Source: Microbacteriaceae bacterium (GTDB taxonomy: Bacteria > Actinomycetota > Actinomycetes > Actinomycetales > Microbacteriaceae). Taken from it: DNA of 11,572 nt. A program made the position numbers and the translations under genes. Location of the stretch: NCBI GenBank assembly GCA_025464125.1, contig JAODLU010000312.1:1-11572 (forward strand). The letters are read 5' to 3'. Below the pieces are notes generated by a model, which searched no databases, had not been told where the DNA came from, and saw only the letters and a list, made by a program, of their open reading frames with translations. This document shows, in pieces, positions 2,780 to 11,309 of the stretch (positions are counted from its first letter, which is position 1; each line of letters opens with the position of its first letter).

Positions 2780-3634
2780 CTAAATCAGGGCTTTCGTGTG
2801 CCAGATGGTCTTGGTCTCGGTGAAGAAGGTGACGCGCTCGACGCTCGGCGCCGGCACCCCGGACTCCGGCGCCAGCACGCGCTTGAGGGTATCCGCTGCG
2901 GATACCTGCAGGCTGATCCAGTCGAGCGCCTCGGCTCCCGCGAGGTCGAGAGCGTTTACGTCTGCATGGCTTGCAAGCCACGGGGCGATCTCGGCCGCCG
3001 AACCGGTGAGCACGTTGACCACTCCCCCTGGCACGTCACTCGTGGCCAGCACCTCGGTGAGACTGATGGCGCTGAGCGCGAACTTCTCGCTCGCAATGAG
3101 CACGACGGTGTTGCCGCTCAGGATGGCCGGAGCCAGCACACTCACGAGCCCGAGGAGGGAACTCTGCTGGGGCGCGACGATGGCGACGACTCCCGTGGGC
3201 TCCGGCGTCGAGATGTTGAAGTATGGACCGCTGACCGGGTTGCCGTTACCCGCGACCTGCAGGTACTTGTCAGCCCAGCCGGCGTACCAGACCCACACGT
3301 CGATGGCTGCGTCGACCTGGCGTGCGGCCGCAACTGCTGGGACACCCTCCGACTGGCGGATCTCGTCGATGAACTGGGCGCGACGGCCCTCGAGCAGTTC
3401 GGCAATGCGGTACAACACCTGGCCGCGGTTGTAACCGGTCGCCCCTGACCATCCGGGGAAGGCCGCTCGGGCCGCGACGACCGCATCACGGGCATCCTTG
3501 CGGGAACCCTGTGCAGCGTTGGCGAGGAACGCCCCTTTGCTGCTCAGGATCTCGTATACGCGACCTGACTCGCTGCGGGGAAACTTGCCGCCGATGTAGA
3601 GCTTGTATGTCTTGGGTACTGCCAGCCTGGTCAT
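2780..3634 (-). CDS. Half-length aldehyde dehydrogenase homologue, predicted non-catalytic (ALDH16 C-terminal-domain-like)
   Basis: The 284-aa product aligns with roughly the first half of an ALDH and stops where the E-L-G-G-K motif would be, so the catalytic Cys domain is absent. The NAD-site positions it does cover are altered. P-W-N-F of the neighbour is P-Q-Q-S here (155-158), which removes the catalytic Asn. The adenosine-binding Lys of I-K-P-A-E is Ile180. F-T-G-S-T is L-A-G-A-E (231-235). The fold core is otherwise kept (Y-I-G-G-K at 13-17, Y-A-G-W-A-D-K at 117-123). The reading frame is open and its ATG overlaps the stop of the full-length ALDH gene by ATGA, with AGGGGAG 7 nt upstream; it is therefore a maintained gene, not decay debris. 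ALDH16 enzymes carry just such a truncated pseudo-domain fused behind the catalytic one. I infer a structural or regulatory partner of the upstream ALDH. Confidence 0.88.
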   Translation of the reverse strand: MTRLAVPKTYKLYIGGKFPRSESGRVYEILSSKGAFLANAAQGSRKDARDAVVAARAAFPGWSGATGYNRGQVLYRIAELLEGRRAQFIDEIRQSEGVPAVAAARQVDAAIDVWVWYAGWADKYLQVAGNGNPVSGPYFNISTPEPTGVVAIVAPQQSSLLGLVSVLAPAILSGNTVVLIASEKFALSAISLTEVLATSDVPGGVVNVLTGSAAEIAPWLASHADVNALDLAGAEALDWISLQVSAADTLKRVLAPESGVPAPSVERVTFFTETKTIWHTKALI

Positions 3635-5106
3635 TTGGATGCTCCCCTGGTGGTCGCTGCGCTGGCAACTGCCGAACTGGTCAGGTATGCGGCGAGGCCG
3701 TGCCTGCCACCCTCGCGCCCGTAACCCGACTCTTTATATCCGCCGAAAGGAGATGCCGGATCGAACTGGTTGAACGTGTTGGCCCAGATGACGCCTGCCC
3801 GCAGTTTGTCGGCCACCGCAAGCACCCTCGAGCCCTTGTCGCTCCAGATGCCCGCTGACAGCCCGTACGGCGTGTTGTTGGCTTTCGCGATCGCTTCGGC
3901 CGGGGTGCGGAAGGTGAGAACACTCAGCACGGGGCCGAATACCTCGTCACGGGCAATCCTGTTGCTGGTCGAGACGTTAGTGAAGATGGTCGGAGCGAAC
4001 CAGAAACCTTTTGCTGGGAGTTCGCATGGTGCAGTCCACCGCTCGGCGCCCTCAGCCTCCCCGATATTCGACAGCTCACGTATGCGCTCGAGCTGAGCCT
4101 TCGAGTTGATCGCACCGATGTCAGTGTTCTTGTCGAGCGGATCACCAAGACGCAGCGTGCTCAGCCTGTCTTTGAGCCTGTCGACGACCTCATCGTGCAC
4201 GTTCTCCTGCACAAGCAGGCGCGACCCCGCGCAGCAGACGTGACCCTGGTTGAAGAAGATGCCATTGACGATTCCTTCGATGGCCTGGTCTATTGGCGCG
4301 TCATCGAACACGATGTTCGCGGCCTTGCCCCCGAGTTCCAGGGTGAGTTTCTTGCCCGTGCCGGCAGTGGACTTCGCGATGGCGCGGCCTACGGCTGTTG
4401 AGCCGGTGAAGGCAACCTTGTTCACGTCAGGATGGTTGACCAGCAGCGACCCTGTCTCGCCGGCACCGGTGATGATGTTGACCACGCCATCCGGAAGCTC
4501 TGCCTGCTGCAGGATCTCGGCGAAGAGCAGCGCGCTGAGGGGCGTGGTCTCGGCAGGTTTGATGACGACGGTGTTGCCAGCGGCCAGTGCTGGTGCGATC
4601 TTCCACGCGAGCATGAGGAGAGGAAAATTCCATGGGATCACCTGGGCGGCAACTCCGAGCGCCCGCGGATTTGCGCCGAGCCCCGCATAGTCGAGCTTGT
4701 CGGCCCAGCCGGCGTAGTAGAAGAACCACGCTGCAACCAGGGGCACGTCGACGTCCCGGCTTTCCTTGATGGGCTTGCCATTGTCGAGGCTCTCGGCCAC
4801 GGCGAGTTCGCGCGCACGCTCCTGCACGAGGCGGGCAATGCGGAACAGGTACTTGCCCCTGTCGGCCCCGCTGAGCTTCGACCATGTTCGGTCGTACGCC
4901 CTGCGGGCAGCGCCCACCGCCGCGTCGACGTCTTTCGCGTTCGCCGACGAGATCTCAGCGATCGTCTCCTCGGTGGCTGGCGAGATCGTGGAGAACGATT
5001 TGCCGTGCCCCTTCACGAACGAGCCGTCGATGAAGAGCCCGTAGCTCTTTTTCAGGTGCAGGATCGAGGTCGATTCCGGTGCTGGTGCGTAGTCGAGAAA
5101 GCTCAT
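3631..5106 (-). CDS. NAD(P)-dependent aldehyde dehydrogenase, full length and catalytic
   Basis: At 491 aa this is a normal-length ALDH, oxidising an aldehyde to the acid. All key residues are visible: P-W-N at 158-160 (catalytic Asn160), Lys183 in I-K-P-A-E, F-T-G-S-T at 233-237, the general base Glu257 in L-E-L-G-G-K, the nucleophile Cys291 in G-H-V-C-C-A-G, and Glu388 with F-G-P at 390-392. It starts 4 nt after the deoC stop and ends in an ATGA overlap with the half-ALDH gene. Next to deoC, the likely substrate is acetaldehyde released by the aldolase, giving acetate (inference from context). The combination with the downstream pseudo-ALDH resembles the N-terminal catalytic part of ALDH16. 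The start codon has only a weak Shine-Dalgarno (TGGA in the deoC tail), consistent with translational coupling to deoC. Probably cytoplasmic. Confidence 0.95.
   Translation of the reverse strand: MSFLDYAPAPESTSILHLKKSYGLFIDGSFVKGHGKSFSTISPATEETIAEISSANAKDVDAAVGAARRAYDRTWSKLSGADRGKYLFRIARLVQERARELAVAESLDNGKPIKESRDVDVPLVAAWFFYYAGWADKLDYAGLGANPRALGVAAQVIPWNFPLLMLAWKIAPALAAGNTVVIKPAETTPLSALLFAEILQQAELPDGVVNIITGAGETGSLLVNHPDVNKVAFTGSTAVGRAIAKSTAGTGKKLTLELGGKAANIVFDDAPIDQAIEGIVNGIFFNQGHVCCAGSRLLVQENVHDEVVDRLKDRLSTLRLGDPLDKNTDIGAINSKAQLERIRELSNIGEAEGAERWTAPCELPAKGFWFAPTIFTNVSTSNRIARDEVFGPVLSVLTFRTPAEAIAKANNTPYGLSAGIWSDKGSRVLAVADKLRAGVIWANTFNQFDPASPFGGYKESGYGREGGRHGLAAYLTSSAVASAATTRGASK
3642..3648 (-). 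promoter_or_regulatory. Shine-Dalgarno AGGGGAG of the half-ALDH gene
   Basis: AGGGGAG lies inside the last codons of the full-length ALDH gene, 7 nt before the ATG of the half-ALDH gene. It shows that the second protein is initiated on its own, coupled to termination of the first, instead of being made by frameshifting. Confidence 0.7.
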
Positions 5107-5110
5107 CGTC

Positions 5111-6139
5111 TTAGTCCATCGTCACGTAGTCGGGGCCGCTGTAATGGCCTGTGGTCAGTTTCTGGCGCTGCAGAAGCACGTCGTTCAGGAGGCTCGACGC
5201 GCCGAAGCGGAAGAGGTGCGGCTGCAGCCACTCCTCCCCAACCGTCTCGGCAACAGTCACGAGGTACTTGATCGCGTCCTTGGACGTGCGGATTCCGCCA
5301 GCCGGCTTCACACCGATCCTCTGCCCACCAGAAGCCCCGCCGGTCAGCCGGTACCAGTCCGCGACGACCTGGAGCATGAGCAGTGTGACCGGAAGGGTTG
5401 CGGCTGGAGACACCTTGCCTGTCGAGGTCTTGATGAAGTCGCCACCAGCGAGAATCGCGAGCCAGGATGCCCGGCGCACGTTGTCGTACGTGTTCAGTTC
5501 TCCGGTCTCCAGGATCACCTTCAGGTGCGCGTAGGTGCCGTCCTCACGACGACATGCCTCCTTGACCGCGACTATCTGGTCGAAGACGAGGCCGTAGCTG
5601 CCTGAGAGGAAAGCACCGCGGTCAATGACCATGTCGATCTCGTCAGCGCCAGCTGCAACTGCATCCTTCGTGTCCGCAATTTTTACCGGGAGCGAAGCCC
5701 GACCGCTCGGGAAGGCCGTGGCGACTGCCGCGACATTGATGCCGTCATCACGGCCGGCCGAGTGCGAAGATCCGAGGGCTGCGACGGCGTACGGAACCAT
5801 GTCGCCGTAGACGCAGACAGCAGCCACCCGCGGGGTGCTGGGGTCCGAGGCATCCGGTGTCATGGCCTTGGCTACGAGCGAGGAGATCTTGCCTGGAGTG
5901 TCAGCGCCCTCGAGCGTGGTGAGGTCGATCAGCTCGATGATCTTGTCGAGCGCCCAGGCCTTCGACGTCGTCTTGATGGAACGTGTGCCGAGCGCGGCCG
6001 CACGGGCTTCGAGCCCCACGGCATCGACGCCCGGCAGGCCCTCGAGGTGCAGACGGAGGCTCTTCTCGGTGAGGTCGCCGCCGATCAGGTCGGTCGCCCT
6101 CTGTGCCGGGGCCAGTGCCACGGCTCGGTCGATTGTCAT
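5111..6139 (-). CDS. deoC: Deoxyribose-phosphate aldolase (long form)
   Basis: This class I aldolase cleaves 2-deoxy-D-ribose 5-phosphate into D-glyceraldehyde 3-phosphate and acetaldehyde, the last step of deoxynucleoside catabolism. Diagnostic motifs are D-F-I-K-T-S-T-G-K with the Schiff-base Lys237, G-V-K-P-A-G-G-I-R-T with the second active-site Lys278, E-I-D near 167-169 (counterpart of Asp102 of the E. coli enzyme) and R-F-G-A-S-S-L-L near 311-318. At 342 aa it is about 80-90 residues longer than the E. coli type; the extra sequence is mainly the N-terminal 60-70 residues, as in other long-form bacterial enzymes. The ATG overlaps the stop of the SorC-type regulator (ATGA) and has AAGGAAG 4 nt upstream. 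The ALDH gene follows after 4 nt. The operon arrangement implies co-expression with its own regulator and with an acetaldehyde-removing enzyme. Confidence 0.96.
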   Translation of the reverse strand: MTIDRAVALAPAQRATDLIGGDLTEKSLRLHLEGLPGVDAVGLEARAAALGTRSIKTTSKAWALDKIIELIDLTTLEGADTPGKISSLVAKAMTPDASDPSTPRVAAVCVYGDMVPYAVAALGSSHSAGRDDGINVAAVATAFPSGRASLPVKIADTKDAVAAGADEIDMVIDRGAFLSGSYGLVFDQIVAVKEACRREDGTYAHLKVILETGELNTYDNVRRASWLAILAGGDFIKTSTGKVSPAATLPVTLLMLQVVADWYRLTGGASGGQRIGVKPAGGIRTSKDAIKYLVTVAETVGEEWLQPHLFRFGASSLLNDVLLQRQKLTTGHYSGPDYVTMD

Positions 6140-7077
6140 GCTGCTTCCTTTTCCAGTAGCGCGAGCGCGGTCGCCTCATCGGTTATGAGCACGGTGCACA
6201 GTCCGCTTGCGACGACTGACCGAGCCACCCGGTGTTTTGCTGCGCCGGCGATGACGGCAATGGACAGGTGGGCCGCACGAATCCTGTCGTGACCGAGACC
6301 GATAGTTCGTTCATCCAGTGCATGGTCGACGATTGCCCCACGCGCGTCTATGTAACGTCCGACCACGTCTCCCACCGCGCCGGCCTTCGCCAGCCTGGCG
6401 ATGTCGCCTGCGCTGAGGTAGCCGCTCTCGACCAGCACCGAAGTCTCGTCCGCGACACCGGCACTGAACAGGTATGCAGAGGCTCCTGCTGCCAGATCGA
6501 GCACGCGCCCGACAGTTCGATCTGCTTCGATGGCGACGCGCGTCTCCGCCCGCTCGAGAATGGCGGGAGTGGGGAGGAGGGTTGCCGAGCCACCGCCCTT
6601 GCTTGCAATCGTCACAGCGGTGGCCGCAGCATTGCTGCCCCGGGATGTCAGGCTGACACCACCGTTCACCTGAACTACGTCCACAGCGGTGGACCAGCCC
6701 TCCGGCAGGCTGCGAGCGACTTCTTCCAGGGTCCTGCCCCAGCTCACGCCGAGCACGAGCGGCGCCGGTCGGAGTTCCTGGAGGTAATCTGCAGCGGCCG
6801 AAGCCACTCGCGCCTGCGCCTCCTGCTCCCCCGCCGGAACGACTACGGCGTCGCGCAGTCCGAAGCGTTCGCAGAGCGCGCGTTCCGCAGGCAGGCGTCG
6901 GGCGCGGGGATGCACGATCTCGATGCGCACTATGCCGTCTTCGCGAGCTTGCGCGAGCAGGCGTCCGACCTTCCAGCGCGTGACCTTCAGAAGGGAACCG
7001 ATCTCATCCTGCGTGCGATTGTCTTCGTAATACAACTCGGCGGCGCGAACGAGCAGGGTGTCATCTGCAACGGTCAC
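6136..7077 (-). CDS. SorC-family sugar-binding transcriptional regulator, probable regulator of the deo operon
   Basis: The 313-aa protein has an N-terminal helix-turn-helix at about 18-47 (R-T-Q-D-E-I-G ... T-R-W-K-V-G-R-L-L) and a SorC-type phosphosugar-binding domain over the remainder, with V-L-G-V-S-W-G-R-T near 106-114, V-V-Q-V-N-G-G near 132-138 and L-L-P-T-P-A near 165-170. Bacillus subtilis DeoR, which senses deoxyribose 5-phosphate and represses its deoC (dra) operon, belongs to this same family and is the same length, so a DeoR-like role is a reasonable inference. I chose GTG at 7077 because AGGAGG lies 4 nt upstream. A TTG at 7101 would add 8 residues but falls inside the predicted -10 element. 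It is the first gene of the tight regulator-deoC-ALDH-half-ALDH operon and would therefore autoregulate. Whether the effector-binding Lys of B. subtilis DeoR is conserved needs an alignment; the V-Q-V-N-G-G segment has Asn where a Lys might be expected. Confidence 0.9.
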   Translation of the reverse strand: MTVADDTLLVRAAELYYEDNRTQDEIGSLLKVTRWKVGRLLAQAREDGIVRIEIVHPRARRLPAERALCERFGLRDAVVVPAGEQEAQARVASAAADYLQELRPAPLVLGVSWGRTLEEVARSLPEGWSTAVDVVQVNGGVSLTSRGSNAAATAVTIASKGGGSATLLPTPAILERAETRVAIEADRTVGRVLDLAAGASAYLFSAGVADETSVLVESGYLSAGDIARLAKAGAVGDVVGRYIDARGAIVDHALDERTIGLGHDRIRAAHLSIAVIAGAAKHRVARSVVASGLCTVLITDEATALALLEKEAA

Positions 7078-7081
7078 GGCG

Positions 7082-7087
7082 CCTCCT
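7082..7087 (-). promoter_or_regulatory. Consensus Shine-Dalgarno AGGAGG deciding the regulator start
   Basis: A perfect AGGAGG sits 4 nt before the GTG at 7077. It supports that start over the upstream TTG at 7101 and suggests good translation of the regulator. Confidence 0.65.
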
Positions 7088-7100
7088 GGCTCACCGACCA

Positions 7101-7129
7101 AGGCTAGGCGGTGTTCGCTGCAGAATCAA
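7101..7129 (-). promoter_or_regulatory. Predicted promoter of the regulator-deoC-ALDH operon
   Basis: On the minus strand TTGATT (7129-7124) and TAGCCT (7106-7101) are separated by 17 nt, matching the housekeeping -35 TTGACA and the actinobacterial -10 TANNNT. The start point would be near 7094, giving a leader of about 17 nt that holds the AGGAGG. The -35 overlaps the TGA of the SRPBCC gene. This makes the deo operon separable from the SRPBCC gene upstream. Confidence 0.5.
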
Positions 7130-7614
7130 CGGATGTTGTCTTTTTCGCTCATATGAGCAAGCGCATGGGCATGTGTGGCTCTCCAGTCGTCCCAGCGCAC
7201 AGGATGCCCGCGCAGCAGCTCCTCGAGCCTGTCGAGTGCGAGCGCCCACCCGATCGCTGCGGAGCCGCGCGCAGCTGCACCCGCGAGCTCGCACACGGTG
7301 AGCCCGAGCACCGTGCCATCGCCGCGCGAACCGCCGGGTACTGCGGCCAGTTCGAAAGCAAAGGAGCCGCGGTTGTCAGTCACAACATGAAGTCTGGTGC
7401 GATGCTCGAAGGCGGTGACGCGCCCTGCAGTCGTGGCTGGATACGAGCCATCCAGCCAGCGGATGCCCACAGCCCCGTCCACGCTGGGCTCGAGCGCGAC
7501 ATCCCCGAGCCACCCCTCAAGCAGTACGGGGTCGATGAGCGCGTCCCAGACGATTATGGGCGCAAGGTCGACCTCTCGCGAGAAGTGCAGATCCGCCCCG
7601 GCCACGAGCGCCAC
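7126..7614 (-). CDS. SRPBCC (START/AHSA1-like) domain protein
   Basis: The 162-aa product shows the AHSA1/SRPBCC pattern: an opening beta-strand (H-F-S-R-E-V-D-L), then P-I-I-V-W-D-A-L-I-D-P at 19-29 with E-G-W-L at 33-36, a run of beta-strands to about residue 110, and a long C-terminal helix (about 115-135) that normally closes a hydrophobic cavity. Such proteins bind hydrophobic ligands or assist other proteins; no catalytic function can be assigned. The start is GTG at 7614 with a poor Shine-Dalgarno; a GTG three codons later is possible. It is divergent from the ROK kinase across only 33 bp and lies 48 bp upstream of the SorC-type regulator on the same strand. The predicted deo promoter overlaps its stop codon, so it may be transcribed both alone and as the first gene of a longer transcript. 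No link to deoxyribose metabolism is evident. Confidence 0.85.
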   Translation of the reverse strand: MALVAGADLHFSREVDLAPIIVWDALIDPVLLEGWLGDVALEPSVDGAVGIRWLDGSYPATTAGRVTAFEHRTRLHVVTDNRGSFAFELAAVPGGSRGDGTVLGLTVCELAGAAARGSAAIGWALALDRLEELLRGHPVRWDDWRATHAHALAHMSEKDNIR

Positions 7615-7635
7615 TCTACGCGGCGACCGGTCGAA

Positions 7636-7641
7636 TAGGCT
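7636..7641 (+). promoter_or_regulatory. -10 element TAGGCT, predicted leaderless start of the ROK gene
   Basis: TAGGCT fits TANNNT and ends 6 nt before the ROK ATG, which puts the expected transcription start on or next to the A of the ATG. There is no Shine-Dalgarno in front of that ATG. No convincing -35 is seen at the expected place. Confidence 0.4.
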
Positions 7642-7647
7642 TGCCGC

Positions 7648-8610
7648 ATGACATCAACGCCTCGCCCAGGAGGCGGCAGCACCACGGCATTCGCCCTGGC
7701 AATGGACCTCGGGGGCACCAAGGTCGAGGCGGCCCTGGTCGATGACACAGGCACCGTCTACCAGCCGAGCAGATTCCGAGCAGCGACCGGGCCGGCCAGC
7801 ACTTCTGCCGGACTGGCTGCCGCGGTCGAGGACGTGATTGTGCGCGCGCTGGCGACGCTCCCCCCTGACGCCCTGATTGTCGGCGTCGGCATCGGGTCGG
7901 CCGGCCCGATCAACGAGGCGGAGGGGCGCGTTTCCCCGCTGAACCTGCCGGCCTGGCGCGAGTATCCGTTGCGGGACCAGGTGATCGCCGCAGTGCCTGG
8001 CATCCCGGTCACCCTTCGCATGGACGGCATCTGCATTGCGCTCGCCGAACACTGGGTCGGGGCAGGCCGGGGCTACGACAATGTCATGGGCATGATCGTG
8101 TCGACGGGCATTGGTGGCGGGCTCATCCTGCACGGCAACACCGTCTCGGGGCCAACAGGCAACGCTGGGCACATCGGGCACGTGGAGGTGGCCGGTTTCG
8201 ATGACCCGTGCCCGTGCGGAGGTGCTGGATGCGTTGAAGCCGTGGCCTCAGGACCCCACACTGTCGCCTGGGCGCGAAGCCGGGGCTGGGGCGGAGCAAC
8301 CGGCGAAGAACTTGGCGAGAGCTACAGGGCCGGCGACCCCATCGCGGCTGCGGCGATCGAACGCTCAGGTCGTGCCATCGGGCAGGCCATTGCCTCGGCG
8401 ACATCCCTGGTCGACCTGGAGCTTGTGGCCATCGGCGGCGGGTTCTCGCATGTCACGCCAGACCTGTTCGACCACATCCGCACTGCAATCGCGAAGCGCT
8501 GGCAGTTCGGTTTCGTCACCAAGGTGAAGGTGGTGCCATCAGGGCTATCGAGCGATGGACCCCTCGTCGGCGCTGCGGCACTCGTGCATCGGGCCAGCTT
8601 CGTCGGCTGA
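7648..8610 (+). CDS. ROK-family sugar kinase
   Basis: The 320-aa protein is a ROK kinase, ATP-dependent on a hexose or amino sugar. It has the phosphate-binding motif D-L-G-G-T-K at 20-25, the catalytic Asp126 in R-M-D-G, S-T-G-I-G-G-G at 152-158, the zinc site formed by His178 and C-P-C-G-G-A-G-C (Cys188, Cys190, Cys195), followed by V-E-A-V-A-S-G, and A-I-G-G-G-F at 261-266. There is no N-terminal helix-turn-helix, so it is an enzyme and not a NagC/Mlc-type repressor. Two signature positions are unusual: D-G replaces the common D-A-N after the catalytic Asp, and H-I-G-H (175-178) replaces the E-x-G-H of typical glucokinases, so I do not assign glucose. The ATG at 7648 is probably leaderless; ATG at 7702 is an internal alternative just before D-L-G-G-T-K. 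It is divergent from the SRPBCC gene and convergent with the MFS gene, so it is likely transcribed alone. Confidence 0.93.
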   Translation: MTSTPRPGGGSTTAFALAMDLGGTKVEAALVDDTGTVYQPSRFRAATGPASTSAGLAAAVEDVIVRALATLPPDALIVGVGIGSAGPINEAEGRVSPLNLPAWREYPLRDQVIAAVPGIPVTLRMDGICIALAEHWVGAGRGYDNVMGMIVSTGIGGGLILHGNTVSGPTGNAGHIGHVEVAGFDDPCPCGGAGCVEAVASGPHTVAWARSRGWGGATGEELGESYRAGDPIAAAAIERSGRAIGQAIASATSLVDLELVAIGGGFSHVTPDLFDHIRTAIAKRWQFGFVTKVKVVPSGLSSDGPLVGAAALVHRASFVG

Positions 8611-8626
8611 TTCCTGGCCGGGACGC

Positions 8627-9892
8627 TCAGGTAACGACAGGCCGGGCGGCGAGTTCGTCTTCGAGGAAGCGGGGTCTCGCGGCCTTCGCTCCGGCAACGA
8701 AACCTGCACAGCCTGTGACAACCAGCACCACCAGCGGCACCACCCACCCCCCGGTGATGTCATGCAGGATGCCGATCACCAGCGGGCCGAGCGCTCCAAC
8801 CGAGTAGCCGACGCCCTGGGCGAATGAGCTGAGTGCAACCGAGCCCTGATGGGTTCGGGTTCGCACGTTGATGAGGGTCAGGCAGACCGCGAACAGGAGC
8901 GGGCCGCTGCCGGCCATCGCCACCCAGAGCCACGTCAGCGGCACAGGCGCCAACAGCAGGCCGAGGTAGCCGACGATGAAGAAGGAGAGGCCCATGTAGA
9001 TGATCGACCGGATGTGCCCGTATCGCACGATCACCCACGGCAGCAGCAGCCCCCACGGCGCACCGACGAGCGCCAGCAGGGCAAGCAGTGCGCCAGCCTG
9101 CGATGGCGTTGCGTCGGCGCGGTCCCGCACGATCTCAGGGAGCCACGCGAAGAGTGAGTAAATGTGCGCGGAAGAAAGCGCAATGAGGGCGGCAAGAGTC
9201 CACGCTGTTCCCGACCTCCAGATGCGATGCGCGAGCGCCGGCGCAGGCTCTTCGATTTCGGGCGTCTCGTCACCGGCCTCGGTCGAGTCGCGCAAGCGCT
9301 GGCGCTCCCTGCGGTGCTGCAGGAGCACGGAGACCCACGGCACGAGCGCGATGGCGGCCACAGCTGCCCAGACGACCAGTGAGAACCTCCACCCGGCACT
9401 GTCGGCGAGCGGGGCCGCGACAATCGCGGGAATTGCCGAACTGACGCCGAGGAGGGTGACATAGACAGCCGTGACGAGGCCAACCCTGTCGGGAAAGTAG
9501 CGCTTCACCGCCGGTGGCAGCAGCACGTTGCCAACGCCAGCCGCGAGCAGCGCCACGATGCTGCCGAAGACGAGGGATGCCGCACCTGAGGCGATGGCCC
9601 TCAGCACGTGACCAGCCACCAGCACGACTAGGGCGATGACGAGCATCCGCTCCAGGCCCACACGCTTGGCGAGGAATCCGGTGAAGAAACCCGAGATGGC
9701 AAATGCGAGCGGCGGCACTGCTCCGATGATGCCGAGCGTGATGCTGTCGAGCGGAATGTCGCGGCCGATTTGGGCCGTGATAGGAGAAATCGCAGCGACC
9801 CCCGTGCGCAGGTTGAAGGCCACGAGGATGATGCCGATAAGTGCCATGGTGCGGCCAGCCCAGAGCGATCGTCTGGACCCGGCGGTAGTCAT
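8627..9892 (-). CDS. MFS transporter, CynX/NimT family
   Basis: The 421-aa protein has 12 predicted membrane helices, roughly at 14-36, 50-74, 80-101, 103-127, 137-162, 167-190, 229-254, 263-288, 293-316, 318-342, 352-378 and 381-403, with a charged cytoplasmic loop (191-228) between the two six-helix bundles. The N-L-R-T-G-V-A-A-I-S-P-I segment at the end of helix 1 (27-38) is the hallmark of the CynX/NimT (cyanate/2-nitroimidazole) branch of the major facilitator superfamily. F-x-A-K-R-V-G-L-E-R near 73-82 is the loop 2-3 signature of MFS. The substrate is unknown; family members move small organic anions or toxic compounds. ATG at 9892 has no Shine-Dalgarno, but TATAAG lies 9 nt upstream, which suggests a leaderless message. 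Its stop is 16 bp from that of the ROK gene, with no clear hairpin between, so the two transcripts probably overlap. Confidence 0.92.
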   Translation of the reverse strand: MTTAGSRRSLWAGRTMALIGIILVAFNLRTGVAAISPITAQIGRDIPLDSITLGIIGAVPPLAFAISGFFTGFLAKRVGLERMLVIALVVLVAGHVLRAIASGAASLVFGSIVALLAAGVGNVLLPPAVKRYFPDRVGLVTAVYVTLLGVSSAIPAIVAAPLADSAGWRFSLVVWAAVAAIALVPWVSVLLQHRRERQRLRDSTEAGDETPEIEEPAPALAHRIWRSGTAWTLAALIALSSAHIYSLFAWLPEIVRDRADATPSQAGALLALLALVGAPWGLLLPWVIVRYGHIRSIIYMGLSFFIVGYLGLLLAPVPLTWLWVAMAGSGPLLFAVCLTLINVRTRTHQGSVALSSFAQGVGYSVGALGPLVIGILHDITGGWVVPLVVLVVTGCAGFVAGAKAARPRFLEDELAARPVVT

Positions 9893-10103
9893 CCATCACA
9901 TCTTATAGACGGCTGTGTGCACTCCTTCCCGCCTGTGTGACCGTGTTAGTGTGTTTCAGTCGGGCTACACAATCCCGACGGCAGTCTGCGGTTCTGCTAC
10001 CCATTAGCTTGTACCTCTGCTGATGACCGAGCTCGCCACTTTGCTCGTCGCATAACCGCTCCGAAGAGACCGCCTACGACAATGACGTTGAAGGAATTTC
10101 ACT
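9893..10103. promoter_or_regulatory. Divergent intergenic region with an inverted repeat
   Basis: This 211-bp gap must hold the promoters of both the MFS gene and the flavoprotein gene. An inverted repeat GTCGGG / CCCGAC with a 9-nt centre lies at 9959-9979, and CTGTGTG occurs twice (near 9913 and 9932). A clear -35/-10 pair for the plus-strand gene was not found; TAGCTT at 10005-10010 is a weak -10 candidate. The end of the region carries AAGGA (10091-10095), the Shine-Dalgarno of the plus-strand gene, 8 nt before its ATG. Confidence 0.45.
9902..9907 (-). promoter_or_regulatory. -10 element TATAAG for the MFS gene, probable leaderless transcript
   Basis: TATAAG on the minus strand (5 of 6 to TATAAT) places the transcription start near 9895, within a few bases of the ATG at 9892. 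The -35 position is GGGAAG, not a consensus hexamer. An out-of-frame ATG at 9896 could compete for initiation. Confidence 0.4.
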
Positions 10104-11309
10104 ATGACTCGTACCACTGTCAAGCCGGGGCCAATCGCTGACGCGCTGGCCAAATACGGTCCGATCCTCGACCGCGAAGGTGCAGAGGGCGCGCGGCTCG
10201 GCCGACTCACCGATGTAGCCGTTGAGGCCTTCATCGCCGGCAACTTCACGGGCACTTCCATCCCGAAGGAATTCGGCGGCTACGGCGAAGACAGCTACGC
10301 CGAGTGGGCTCGTGTTGTCGAAGAGGTGTCCCGCAACGATGGTGCCTCAGGATGGTGCCTCCAGGCGCTGAGCGGAAACTCAGGCCTCTTCATCGCCGGC
10401 CTCTCCGACGAGGGCGTCAAGAAGATGTTCGCCGGTCCGGTGCTGCCACGCACCGCTGGCATGGCGGGCCCCCGCGGCAAGGCCGTCAGGGTCGAAGGCG
10501 GCTTCATGGTCGAGGGCAAGCACCAGTTCGCCTCAGGCTCGAGCCTCGCCACACACTTCATCGCGGGAAGCATCGTCTACGAGAACGACAAGCCGGTAAT
10601 GCTGGACAACGGCGCACCGGAGATCATCGCAATCACGATGCCGAAAGACCAGGTGCGCAACACCGGCAACTGGGATGTCATCGGCCTCCAGGCCTCAGCC
10701 AGCGTCGACTACGAGATCGGCCCGGTCTTCGTGCCGGACGACCAGGTAGTTCACCTGAACCCGTGGCCCGACCCCGTGCAGCGCGGTTCGCACTCCATGC
10801 GCATGGGCTTCTCCGTGCGTGCCATCGGCGGCCACACCCCGGTTATCCTCGGAATCGCCCAGCGCTCGCTGGAGGAGATCGCGAAGCTCGCGCCAACCCG
10901 CCAGCGCAAAGACGGCCCGTACCCCGCAGTGGGCGACCAGCCGCACTTCCTGCACGAGCTCGCCCTGCGCGAGGCCGAGCTGCACTCCGTGCGTCTCGCC
11001 ATGCTCGACTACTACGAGCAGGTCGACGACTTCGCGGACAACACAACGGGGCCAGTCGGCCAGGAGTGGGGCGACCGTGCGCAGCAGCTTGGCCGCTACG
11101 CACACGACATCGCAATCAAGGCGGTCGACTTCGCGTACGAGTGGTCAGGCTCCGCGGGTCTTCGCCAGGGTAACGTCATCGGGCGCAACTTCCTCAGCCT
11201 GCACGCGATCAACCAGCACATCATCGCTGACCGCTACACGCTGATCGACGGGTCGCGCACGGTTATCGCGGAACTCGCTGCGAGCACTGCGGCGTTCTAC
11301 GCGGCCTGA
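10104..11309 (+). CDS. Acyl-CoA-dehydrogenase-fold flavoprotein, probable flavin-dependent monooxygenase (HsaA/DszC-like)
   Basis: The 401-aa protein has the three-part acyl-CoA dehydrogenase fold: helical N-terminal part (about 1-115, with S-R-N-D-G-A-S-G-W-C at 76-85), beta middle part (about 116-225, with G-K-H-Q-F-A-S-G at 138-145 and G-N-W-D-V-I-G-L near 188-195), and a helical C-terminal part like Acyl-CoA_dh_2 (about 235-400, with R-N-F-L-S-L-H-A-I-N-Q-H at 361-372). The S-G-W segment, the G-x-W-x-x-x-G-L segment and the R-x-x-x-x-x-H pattern are those of group D flavin monooxygenases such as HsaA and DszC. The Glu base of true acyl-CoA dehydrogenases is not apparent. Such enzymes use reduced flavin from a separate reductase and O2; no reductase is in the window, and the substrate is unknown. 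AAGGA precedes the ATG by 8 nt. It is monocistronic, ending before a strong terminator, and divergent from the MFS transporter, which may handle the same compound (inference). Confidence 0.88.
   Translation: MTRTTVKPGPIADALAKYGPILDREGAEGARLGRLTDVAVEAFIAGNFTGTSIPKEFGGYGEDSYAEWARVVEEVSRNDGASGWCLQALSGNSGLFIAGLSDEGVKKMFAGPVLPRTAGMAGPRGKAVRVEGGFMVEGKHQFASGSSLATHFIAGSIVYENDKPVMLDNGAPEIIAITMPKDQVRNTGNWDVIGLQASASVDYEIGPVFVPDDQVVHLNPWPDPVQRGSHSMRMGFSVRAIGGHTPVILGIAQRSLEEIAKLAPTRQRKDGPYPAVGDQPHFLHELALREAELHSVRLAMLDYYEQVDDFADNTTGPVGQEWGDRAQQLGRYAHDIAIKAVDFAYEWSGSAGLRQGNVIGRNFLSLHAINQHIIADRYTLIDGSRTVIAELAASTAAFYAA

Follow-up and report, generated by a model that had tools for sequence, protein, structure and literature searches.

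A probable split ALDH16 encoded by two genes beside deoC: a catalytic aldehyde dehydrogenase and its likely pseudo-subunit partner

The stretch of DNA analysed here, referred to as the window (11,572 bases; GenBank contig JAODLU010000312.1 of a Microbacteriaceae bacterium, contig C46 of a 2.1 Mb assembly that is 65% complete), carries an operon of four genes on its minus strand. In the direction of transcription these encode a SorC/DeoR-type sugar-sensing regulator (6136..7101), the deoxyribose-phosphate aldolase DeoC (342 aa, 5111..6139; TIGR00126 at 160.6 bits, above its cut-off of 117.3), an aldehyde dehydrogenase (ALDH) of 491 aa (3631..5106) and an ALDH-like protein of 284 aa (2780..3634), which we call the half-protein. 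Regulator and deoC overlap by ATGA, as do the ALDH and half-protein genes. An earlier reading of the bare letters (the sequence-only reading) had placed the two overlapping frames at these positions beside deoC, and had credited the half-protein gene with a strong Shine–Dalgarno sequence of its own. Both open reading frames were confirmed, AGGGGAG (3642..3648, minus strand) lies 7 bases 5′ of the half-protein ATG, and deoC is directly upstream of the pair. The reading frames of ALDH and half-protein are not in register. The same reading took the pair for a two-gene form of ALDH16, and this idea is supported by the data below.

The half-protein resembles the second domain of ALDH16 in both sequence and fold. 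Its best match in the Protein Data Bank (PDB) is the C-terminal domain of Loktanella ALDH16 (6mvr/6mvu, residues 500–762) at 157 bits, versus about 103 bits for the best ordinary ALDH. A structural model of the half-protein with a predicted local distance difference test score (pLDDT) of 93.3 retrieved ALDH16 at each of ranks 1–3 in Foldseek, with template modelling scores of 0.89–0.90. In a tree, half-proteins and the C-domains of fused, single-chain ALDH16 form one clade with a Shimodaira–Hasegawa-like approximate likelihood ratio (SH-aLRT) support of 100 and a branch of 1.17. All 24 N-terminal ALDH halves that were included, among them those of the partner ALDHs, fall outside this clade. 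This was the comparison that the sequence-only reading had proposed for its own claim, and its outcome agrees with that claim.

That reading had also described the protein as the N-terminal half of an ALDH and nothing else. The N-terminal part of this description stands; the restriction does not, for residues ~271–281 match the extreme C-terminal strand of ALDHs, and it is the intervening catalytic domain that is absent. Residues 8–284 of the model align structurally onto residues 7–482 of an ordinary ALDH of 484 residues. The TETKTIW region (residues 271–281, 2792..2824, minus strand), in which DSSP assigns a strand to modelled residues 272–280, is the counterpart of the C-terminal strand in ordinary ALDHs (e.g. 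YTETKSVFV). The other part of the oligomerisation flap is a hairpin at residues 128–147 (3194..3253, minus strand), modelled with strands at 130–133 and 138–146. As modelled, the half-protein is an ALDH with its catalytic domain excised and its oligomerisation flap retained, and it shows the combination of Rossmann fold and flap without catalytic domain that characterizes the ALDH16 C-domain. Where the source databases name such proteins (entries P0006–P0125), the names are aldehyde dehydrogenase family protein or NAD-dependent aldehyde dehydrogenase, despite the absence of a catalytic domain.

The partner ALDH has undergone the complementary losses. Its best PDB match is again ALDH16, this time via the N-terminal part (552 versus 427 bits), and catalytic parts of split and fused forms make up one clade, supported at 99/98 against four ordinary ALDHs and with an SH-aLRT of 99 against six. 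Asn160, Glu257 and Cys291 are intact in the window enzyme. By ALDH numbering, Cys291 (codon 4234..4236, minus strand) would be the catalytic cysteine, and the roles of the active-site Asn and Glu and of the NAD-site Lys are assumed in the same way. The Cys column is occupied by cysteine in 85/85 split, 107/107 fused and 24/24 ordinary enzymes, and Asn, Glu, Cys and the NAD-site Lys are all kept in every one of the 85 split and 107 fused catalytic parts. In the half-proteins, the Cys column is gapped in 85/85 and the NAD-site Lys is substituted in 85/85.

The flap elements show the opposite distribution. In ordinary ALDHs (24 sequences, taken from the matches of the genome scans) the hairpin segment has 20–31 residues with a median of 21; it has 24 residues in 85/85 half-proteins and 21 in 106/107 fused C-domains. 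In split catalytic subunits it has shrunk to 13 residues in 83 of 85 cases (the remaining pair have 14 and 22), as aligned in the window enzyme at 4657..4695 (minus strand), and in fused catalytic parts to 11 residues without exception (107/107). A rough pattern for the C-terminal strand was found in 70/85 half-proteins, 101/107 fused C-domains and 17/22 ordinary ALDHs (two more could not be placed), and in 0/85 split and 1/106 fused catalytic parts (one could not be placed). A model of the catalytic subunit by itself (23 rows; pLDDT 82.1, with low confidence at residues 1–6, 446–463 and 479–491) contains no strand of at least three residues at 141–151, where the hairpin would be expected. From these alignments, the catalytic subunit looks like the mirror image of the half-protein: its active site is intact, its hairpin is shortened and its C-terminal strand is gone. 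Liu and Tanner, in 2019, reportedly located the flap of the ALDH16 crystal structure in the C-terminal domain.

A separate observation concerns the Pfam family DUF1487, which matches a short stretch of ALDH16-type catalytic domains (24.9 and 28.4 bits against a cut-off of 23, among P0005, P0260 and P0002) and reaches 18.4 bits on the window ALDH, below that cut-off. This label is seen on fused proteins, where it matches the ALDH catalytic part only.

Three phyla were surveyed: Actinobacteriota, Pseudomonadota and Verrucomicrobiota. With a profile of half-proteins, 92 of 396 actinobacterial genomes (the window's own genome included unless stated otherwise) gave matches of at least 313 bits, and the next match of any kind scored 151 bits. 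The catalytic subunit was sought in the same genomes at E up to 1e-165, and both genes were present in 91/396. With the window's own genome left out, 90 genomes carry both genes, one carries the half-protein only (G245) and one the ALDH only (G186); each of the two lone genes lies next to the end of its contig, on the flank where the partner would be expected. The flanks of 80 of the 116 actinobacterial matches were examined. The ALDH lies upstream of the half-protein in 78 of them, the other two being cut, and 0/78 are fused. In 70 of these 78 loci a same-strand deoC lies no more than 700 bases upstream; in four it is further away, and in three the contig ends first. In the 77 loci with a usable start of the half-protein, chosen by rule, 65 starts overlap the ALDH stop (35 of them by four bases), six lie within 60 bases of it, three within 300 and three beyond. 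A Shine–Dalgarno-like word precedes 62/85 half-protein starts, Verrucomicrobiota included. Pfam searches with 10 neighbours in four loci (L068, L218, L328 and L329) revealed no common gene besides the operon, and no relative was found in the viral contigs searched.

The sequence-only reading had called for such a survey of conserved pairs and of fused versions next to deoC, and fused versions adjoining deoC do exist. Named genomes were scanned with a profile led by the Loktanella domain, and the best 80 of at least 589 relatives were followed up, a selection that leans to fused forms. These 80 are nearly all from Rhodobacterales; 78 are single chains and two are cut. deoC is directly upstream in 74 of the 78 single-chain loci and further upstream in two, and none was seen in two loci that begin at a contig end. 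Among 348 Pseudomonadota genomes, 45 carry the family, with 46 matches of at least 268 bits, all in open frames of 768–889 aa. The 29 loci examined with flanks are all fused, and deoC is directly upstream in 27 and further away in one; the remaining locus sits at a contig start. In a plasmid record of Sinorhizobium meliloti (CP050512.1, 1445195–1455929; L334), a DeoR-family regulator, deoC and a fused ALDH16 of 794 aa are consecutive, and a fucose-binding protein and an OsmC protein come next.

Both forms occur in Verrucomicrobiota (L127, L138, L143 and L270–L277), and 115 genomes gave 10 matches: eight split, one fused and one cut. deoC lies upstream in 8/8 of the split loci, and the half-protein gene is 0.5–1.9 kb from the ALDH gene in some of them. 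The two genes are separated by a POT-family (PTR2) transporter gene in three tested loci (L270:2403-3794, L273:2493-3836 and L274:2819-4198) and by a PDDEXK_3 gene in two others (L276 and L277). Since other genes intervene, the half-protein is encoded by a gene of its own. A fused ALDH16 in a contig labelled Nocardioides marinus (L070, JAHVJD010000003.1, 4489–6822) has a C-domain 73% identical to that of Loktanella; a mislabelled or contaminated assembly, or a transfer, are candidate explanations. One match of 175 bits (L280, genome G687) is an ordinary ALDH and was dropped from the family counts. Protein-database searches considered the nearest 120 of about 8000 scored in each, a number that may include ordinary ALDHs, and say little on other phyla.

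If the two chains are in contact, signs of this may be sought in their covariation. We ranked pairs between ALDH and half-protein columns by mutual information with background correction in 81 loci that have ALDH, half-protein and deoC (effective number of sequences, Neff, 59), with the catalytic domain of the ALDH defined as residue 262 onwards and the flap of the half-protein as residues 128–147 and 271–281. Pairs between catalytic domain and flap made up 8 of the top 30 (1.5 expected), 16 of the top 60 (3.0) and 21 of the top 100 (4.9). When the flap label was shifted circularly, 5 of the 230 placements, counting the original one, reached the excess at each of these cuts. Flap columns paired with any ALDH column in 20 of the top 60 (6.8 expected; 5/230 shifts) and 26 of the top 100 (11.3 expected; 20 shifts). 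Against DeoC, flap columns appeared in 10 of the top 60 (6.8 expected; 56/230 shifts) and 14 of the top 100 (75 shifts). A repeat on 85 pairs again gave 16 of 60 between catalytic domain and flap, and two between NAD domain and flap (3.9 expected), and 60 shuffled pairings gave at most three. In the fused set the number was 14 of 60 (3.1 expected; 10/231 shifts). An initial analysis, in which the flap was drawn more widely and the alignment was coarser, had given 21/60 for split and 13/60 for fused forms. The covariation points to a contact between flap and catalytic domain, with no such excess against DeoC. A predicted partnership of ALDH and half-protein is backed by co-occurrence, by complementary loss of modules and by inter-protein covariation.

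We consider it likely that the pair is a split ALDH16, a complex of a flap-poor catalytic subunit and a pseudo-subunit without catalytic domain, which would assemble as alpha2-beta2 and oxidise the acetaldehyde produced by DeoC. According to this model, the pseudo-subunit would dock on the catalytic subunit as a second ALDH subunit would, and would lend its hairpin and C-terminal strand to the catalytic domain of its partner. One pair would then be equivalent to one ALDH16 chain, and two pairs to the ALDH16 dimer. The enzyme and DeoC are encoded in one operon, and the most likely reaction would be oxidation to acetate of the acetaldehyde released from deoxyribose 5-phosphate. The data themselves cover homology, a fold model, gene order, co-occurrence, the complementary loss of modules and covariation; we infer the physical complex, its stoichiometry and its substrate.

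Among the alternatives, the one that survives best leaves the complex in place and gives it another substrate, such as glyceraldehyde 3-phosphate or a deoxysugar aldehyde. DeoC releases glyceraldehyde 3-phosphate too, and perhaps a minor but real share of probability belongs here; however, split and fused forms alike usually have deoC next to them, and acetaldehyde is presumably the DeoC product that needs an oxidising enzyme. It is improbable that the half-protein is instead a free-standing NAD-domain protein, for example a regulator of the operon or a chaperone, which forms no stable complex with the enzyme. Its Rossmann fold is kept and its gene can stand 0.5–1.9 kb from that of the ALDH in Verrucomicrobiota, as such a protein might allow, but the NAD-site Lys is replaced in every half-protein, the partner is devoid of the flap that the half-protein has, covariation points at a contact between flap and catalytic domain, and in fused relatives both modules belong to one molecule.

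We regard as very improbable the idea that the half-protein is a truncated paralogue of an ordinary ALDH, or a decaying fragment of a recent duplication, without any role. Pfam and the source databases call it a plain aldehyde dehydrogenase, and it is 35% identical to its partner. Against this, it groups with ALDH16 C-domains, it occurs together with its partner in 91/396 genomes, and its loss is confined to the catalytic domain, with the C-terminal strand retained. Moreover, its ratio of nonsynonymous to synonymous substitution rates (dN/dS) is 0.09–0.12 in five comparisons (four genomes of the same genus and one of another genus); in the same genomes the partner ALDH has 0.06–0.085, and deoC has 0.064–0.078 in the four comparisons with deoC in view. 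The half-protein is carried by 27 of 60 relatives' genomes, at 64–84% identity. Least credible of all is a single ALDH16 gene split by a frameshift or an assembly error, as the four-base overlap and the summed length of 775 aa, typical of ALDH16, might suggest, for 0/78 actinobacterial loci from different genomes are fused, the window half-protein has its own start and Shine–Dalgarno sequence, and whole genes intervene in Verrucomicrobiota. Hence both the frameshift and the pseudogene explanations were rejected on the unfused loci across genomes, the tree, the intervening genes, the Shine–Dalgarno sequence and dN/dS.

Several points weigh against a split ALDH16 that acts on acetaldehyde as described. 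The predicted complex draws on sequence, a fold model and gene context, and the substrate is read from the gene neighbourhood. One of the 78 actinobacterial loci (L209) has no deoC match in the ~2.2 kb upstream. In 6/8 Verrucomicrobiota and 3/77 actinobacterial loci, more than 300 bases separate the ALDH from the start of the half-protein downstream, and therefore tight coupling of the two genes is not universal. The covariation sets are small (81–85 pairs, Neff about 60) and their members related, and the narrower flap definition, confined to the modelled strands, was adopted after the initial analysis. In addition, the strongest pairs of the split and fused sets do not coincide, with one in common within two residues and 1.8 expected; the matching of single covarying positions across the two sets was rejected, the agreement being not beyond chance.

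How the split and fused states are related historically can be discussed from the trees. In the full-length catalytic tree, rooted on four long-branched ordinary ALDHs, the fused clade (100/98) is sister to the split clade (98/96). With four distant outgroup rows, one fusion of an old pair and one fission of an old fusion would fit this topology equally well. In the same tree all eight split Verrucomicrobiota are nested among actinobacterial rows (97/95), and the fused protein from Opitutia (Verrucomicrobiota) is nested within Rhodobacterales. In the half-protein tree, two of the eight Verrucomicrobiota rows nest among actinobacterial rows and six stand at an unresolved fork. As Verrucomicrobiota of both forms are nested in the catalytic tree, the operon may have moved between phyla in both its split and its fused state.

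A more far-reaching scenario is put forward only tentatively. ALDH16 might have begun as a heteromer, and might still be one in Actinobacteriota and in most of the Verrucomicrobiota seen. Duplication would have been followed by reciprocal loss of flap and catalytic domain, such that neither protein works alone; the single chain of Pseudomonadota would be a later fusion, as would, by extension, the animal pseudoenzyme; and DeoC may hand acetaldehyde over directly. If this were true, the heteromer-first origin would be a case of duplication, degeneration and complementation at the level of structural modules, and fusion would have frozen a quaternary contact into a tertiary one.

Within the window, the regulator matches PF04198 at 182.5 bits. 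It scores 219.9 bits with the NCBIfam DeoR repressor model NF053881, below the 420-bit cut-off of that model, and therefore we name it only SorC/DeoR-type. Its open reading frame is listed from TTG at 7101; GTG at 7077, with AGGAGG upstream, is a likelier start. The flanking genes (246–2757 and 7126–11309) encode a glycerophosphodiesterase, an NAD-binding and DUF2867 protein, an unassigned 162-aa open reading frame, a ROK-family protein, an MFS permease and an acyl-CoA-dehydrogenase-like protein, and Pfam assignments of the window proteins gave no sign of a tie between them and the operon.

Our results can help to understand what is odd about ALDH16 within its large family, in which tertiary contacts imitate the contacts between subunits of other ALDHs. 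A widespread two-gene form would turn the imitated contact into a real subunit contact, and would make both states directly comparable. It would also provide a case of an enzyme that possibly depends, via mirror-image losses, on a non-catalytic copy of itself. Proteins labelled aldehyde dehydrogenase can be without a catalytic domain, and the neighbouring deoC offers a physiological role for the bacterial ALDH16 family. In the literature on ALDH16, on split, truncated or heteromeric ALDHs and on deoC with ALDH, as far as it was covered (subscription papers were largely missing), we found no description of a two-gene ALDH16.

Compared with known systems, the window pair is closest to bacterial ALDH16 from Loktanella sp. 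(PDB 6MVR, 6MVS, 6MVT and 6MVU). Both have the same two modules in the same order and shared sequence clades, the module losses recur in the fused relatives, and deoC is upstream in Loktanella salsilacus as well. The catalytic subunit belongs to the N-terminal clade and has the catalytic cysteine, and the truncated second domain groups with C-domains. However, the Loktanella enzyme is one chain, with 767 residues in the solved structure, whereas the window form is two genes and so departs from the single polypeptide of ~770–800 aa with both domains by which ALDH16 is otherwise recognized. According to PMC8160307, ALDH16 is a homodimer that mimics the classical ALDH tetramer, and human ALDH16A1 is a member of the family. 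Human ALDH16A1 is described as a pseudoenzyme without catalytic Cys (PMC8160307 and PMC10650815), and by this description it differs from the window enzyme, which has catalytic Cys, Glu and Asn. Classical homo-oligomeric ALDHs (ALDH1, ALDH2 and BADH) share the fold, and the alignment of the pseudo-subunit with them begins close to their start and reaches their extreme C-terminus; in contrast, they hold catalytic domain and flap on one chain, and the window system divides them over two. DeoC operons for the breakdown of deoxyribonucleosides likewise combine DeoC with a sugar-sensing regulator, whereas the window operon includes the ALDH pair and its regulator falls below the NF053881 cut-off. 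Taken together, it is well supported that a two-gene ALDH16 occurs frequently in Actinobacteriota and exists in Verrucomicrobiota too, and that its modules are divided unusually cleanly over the two chains.

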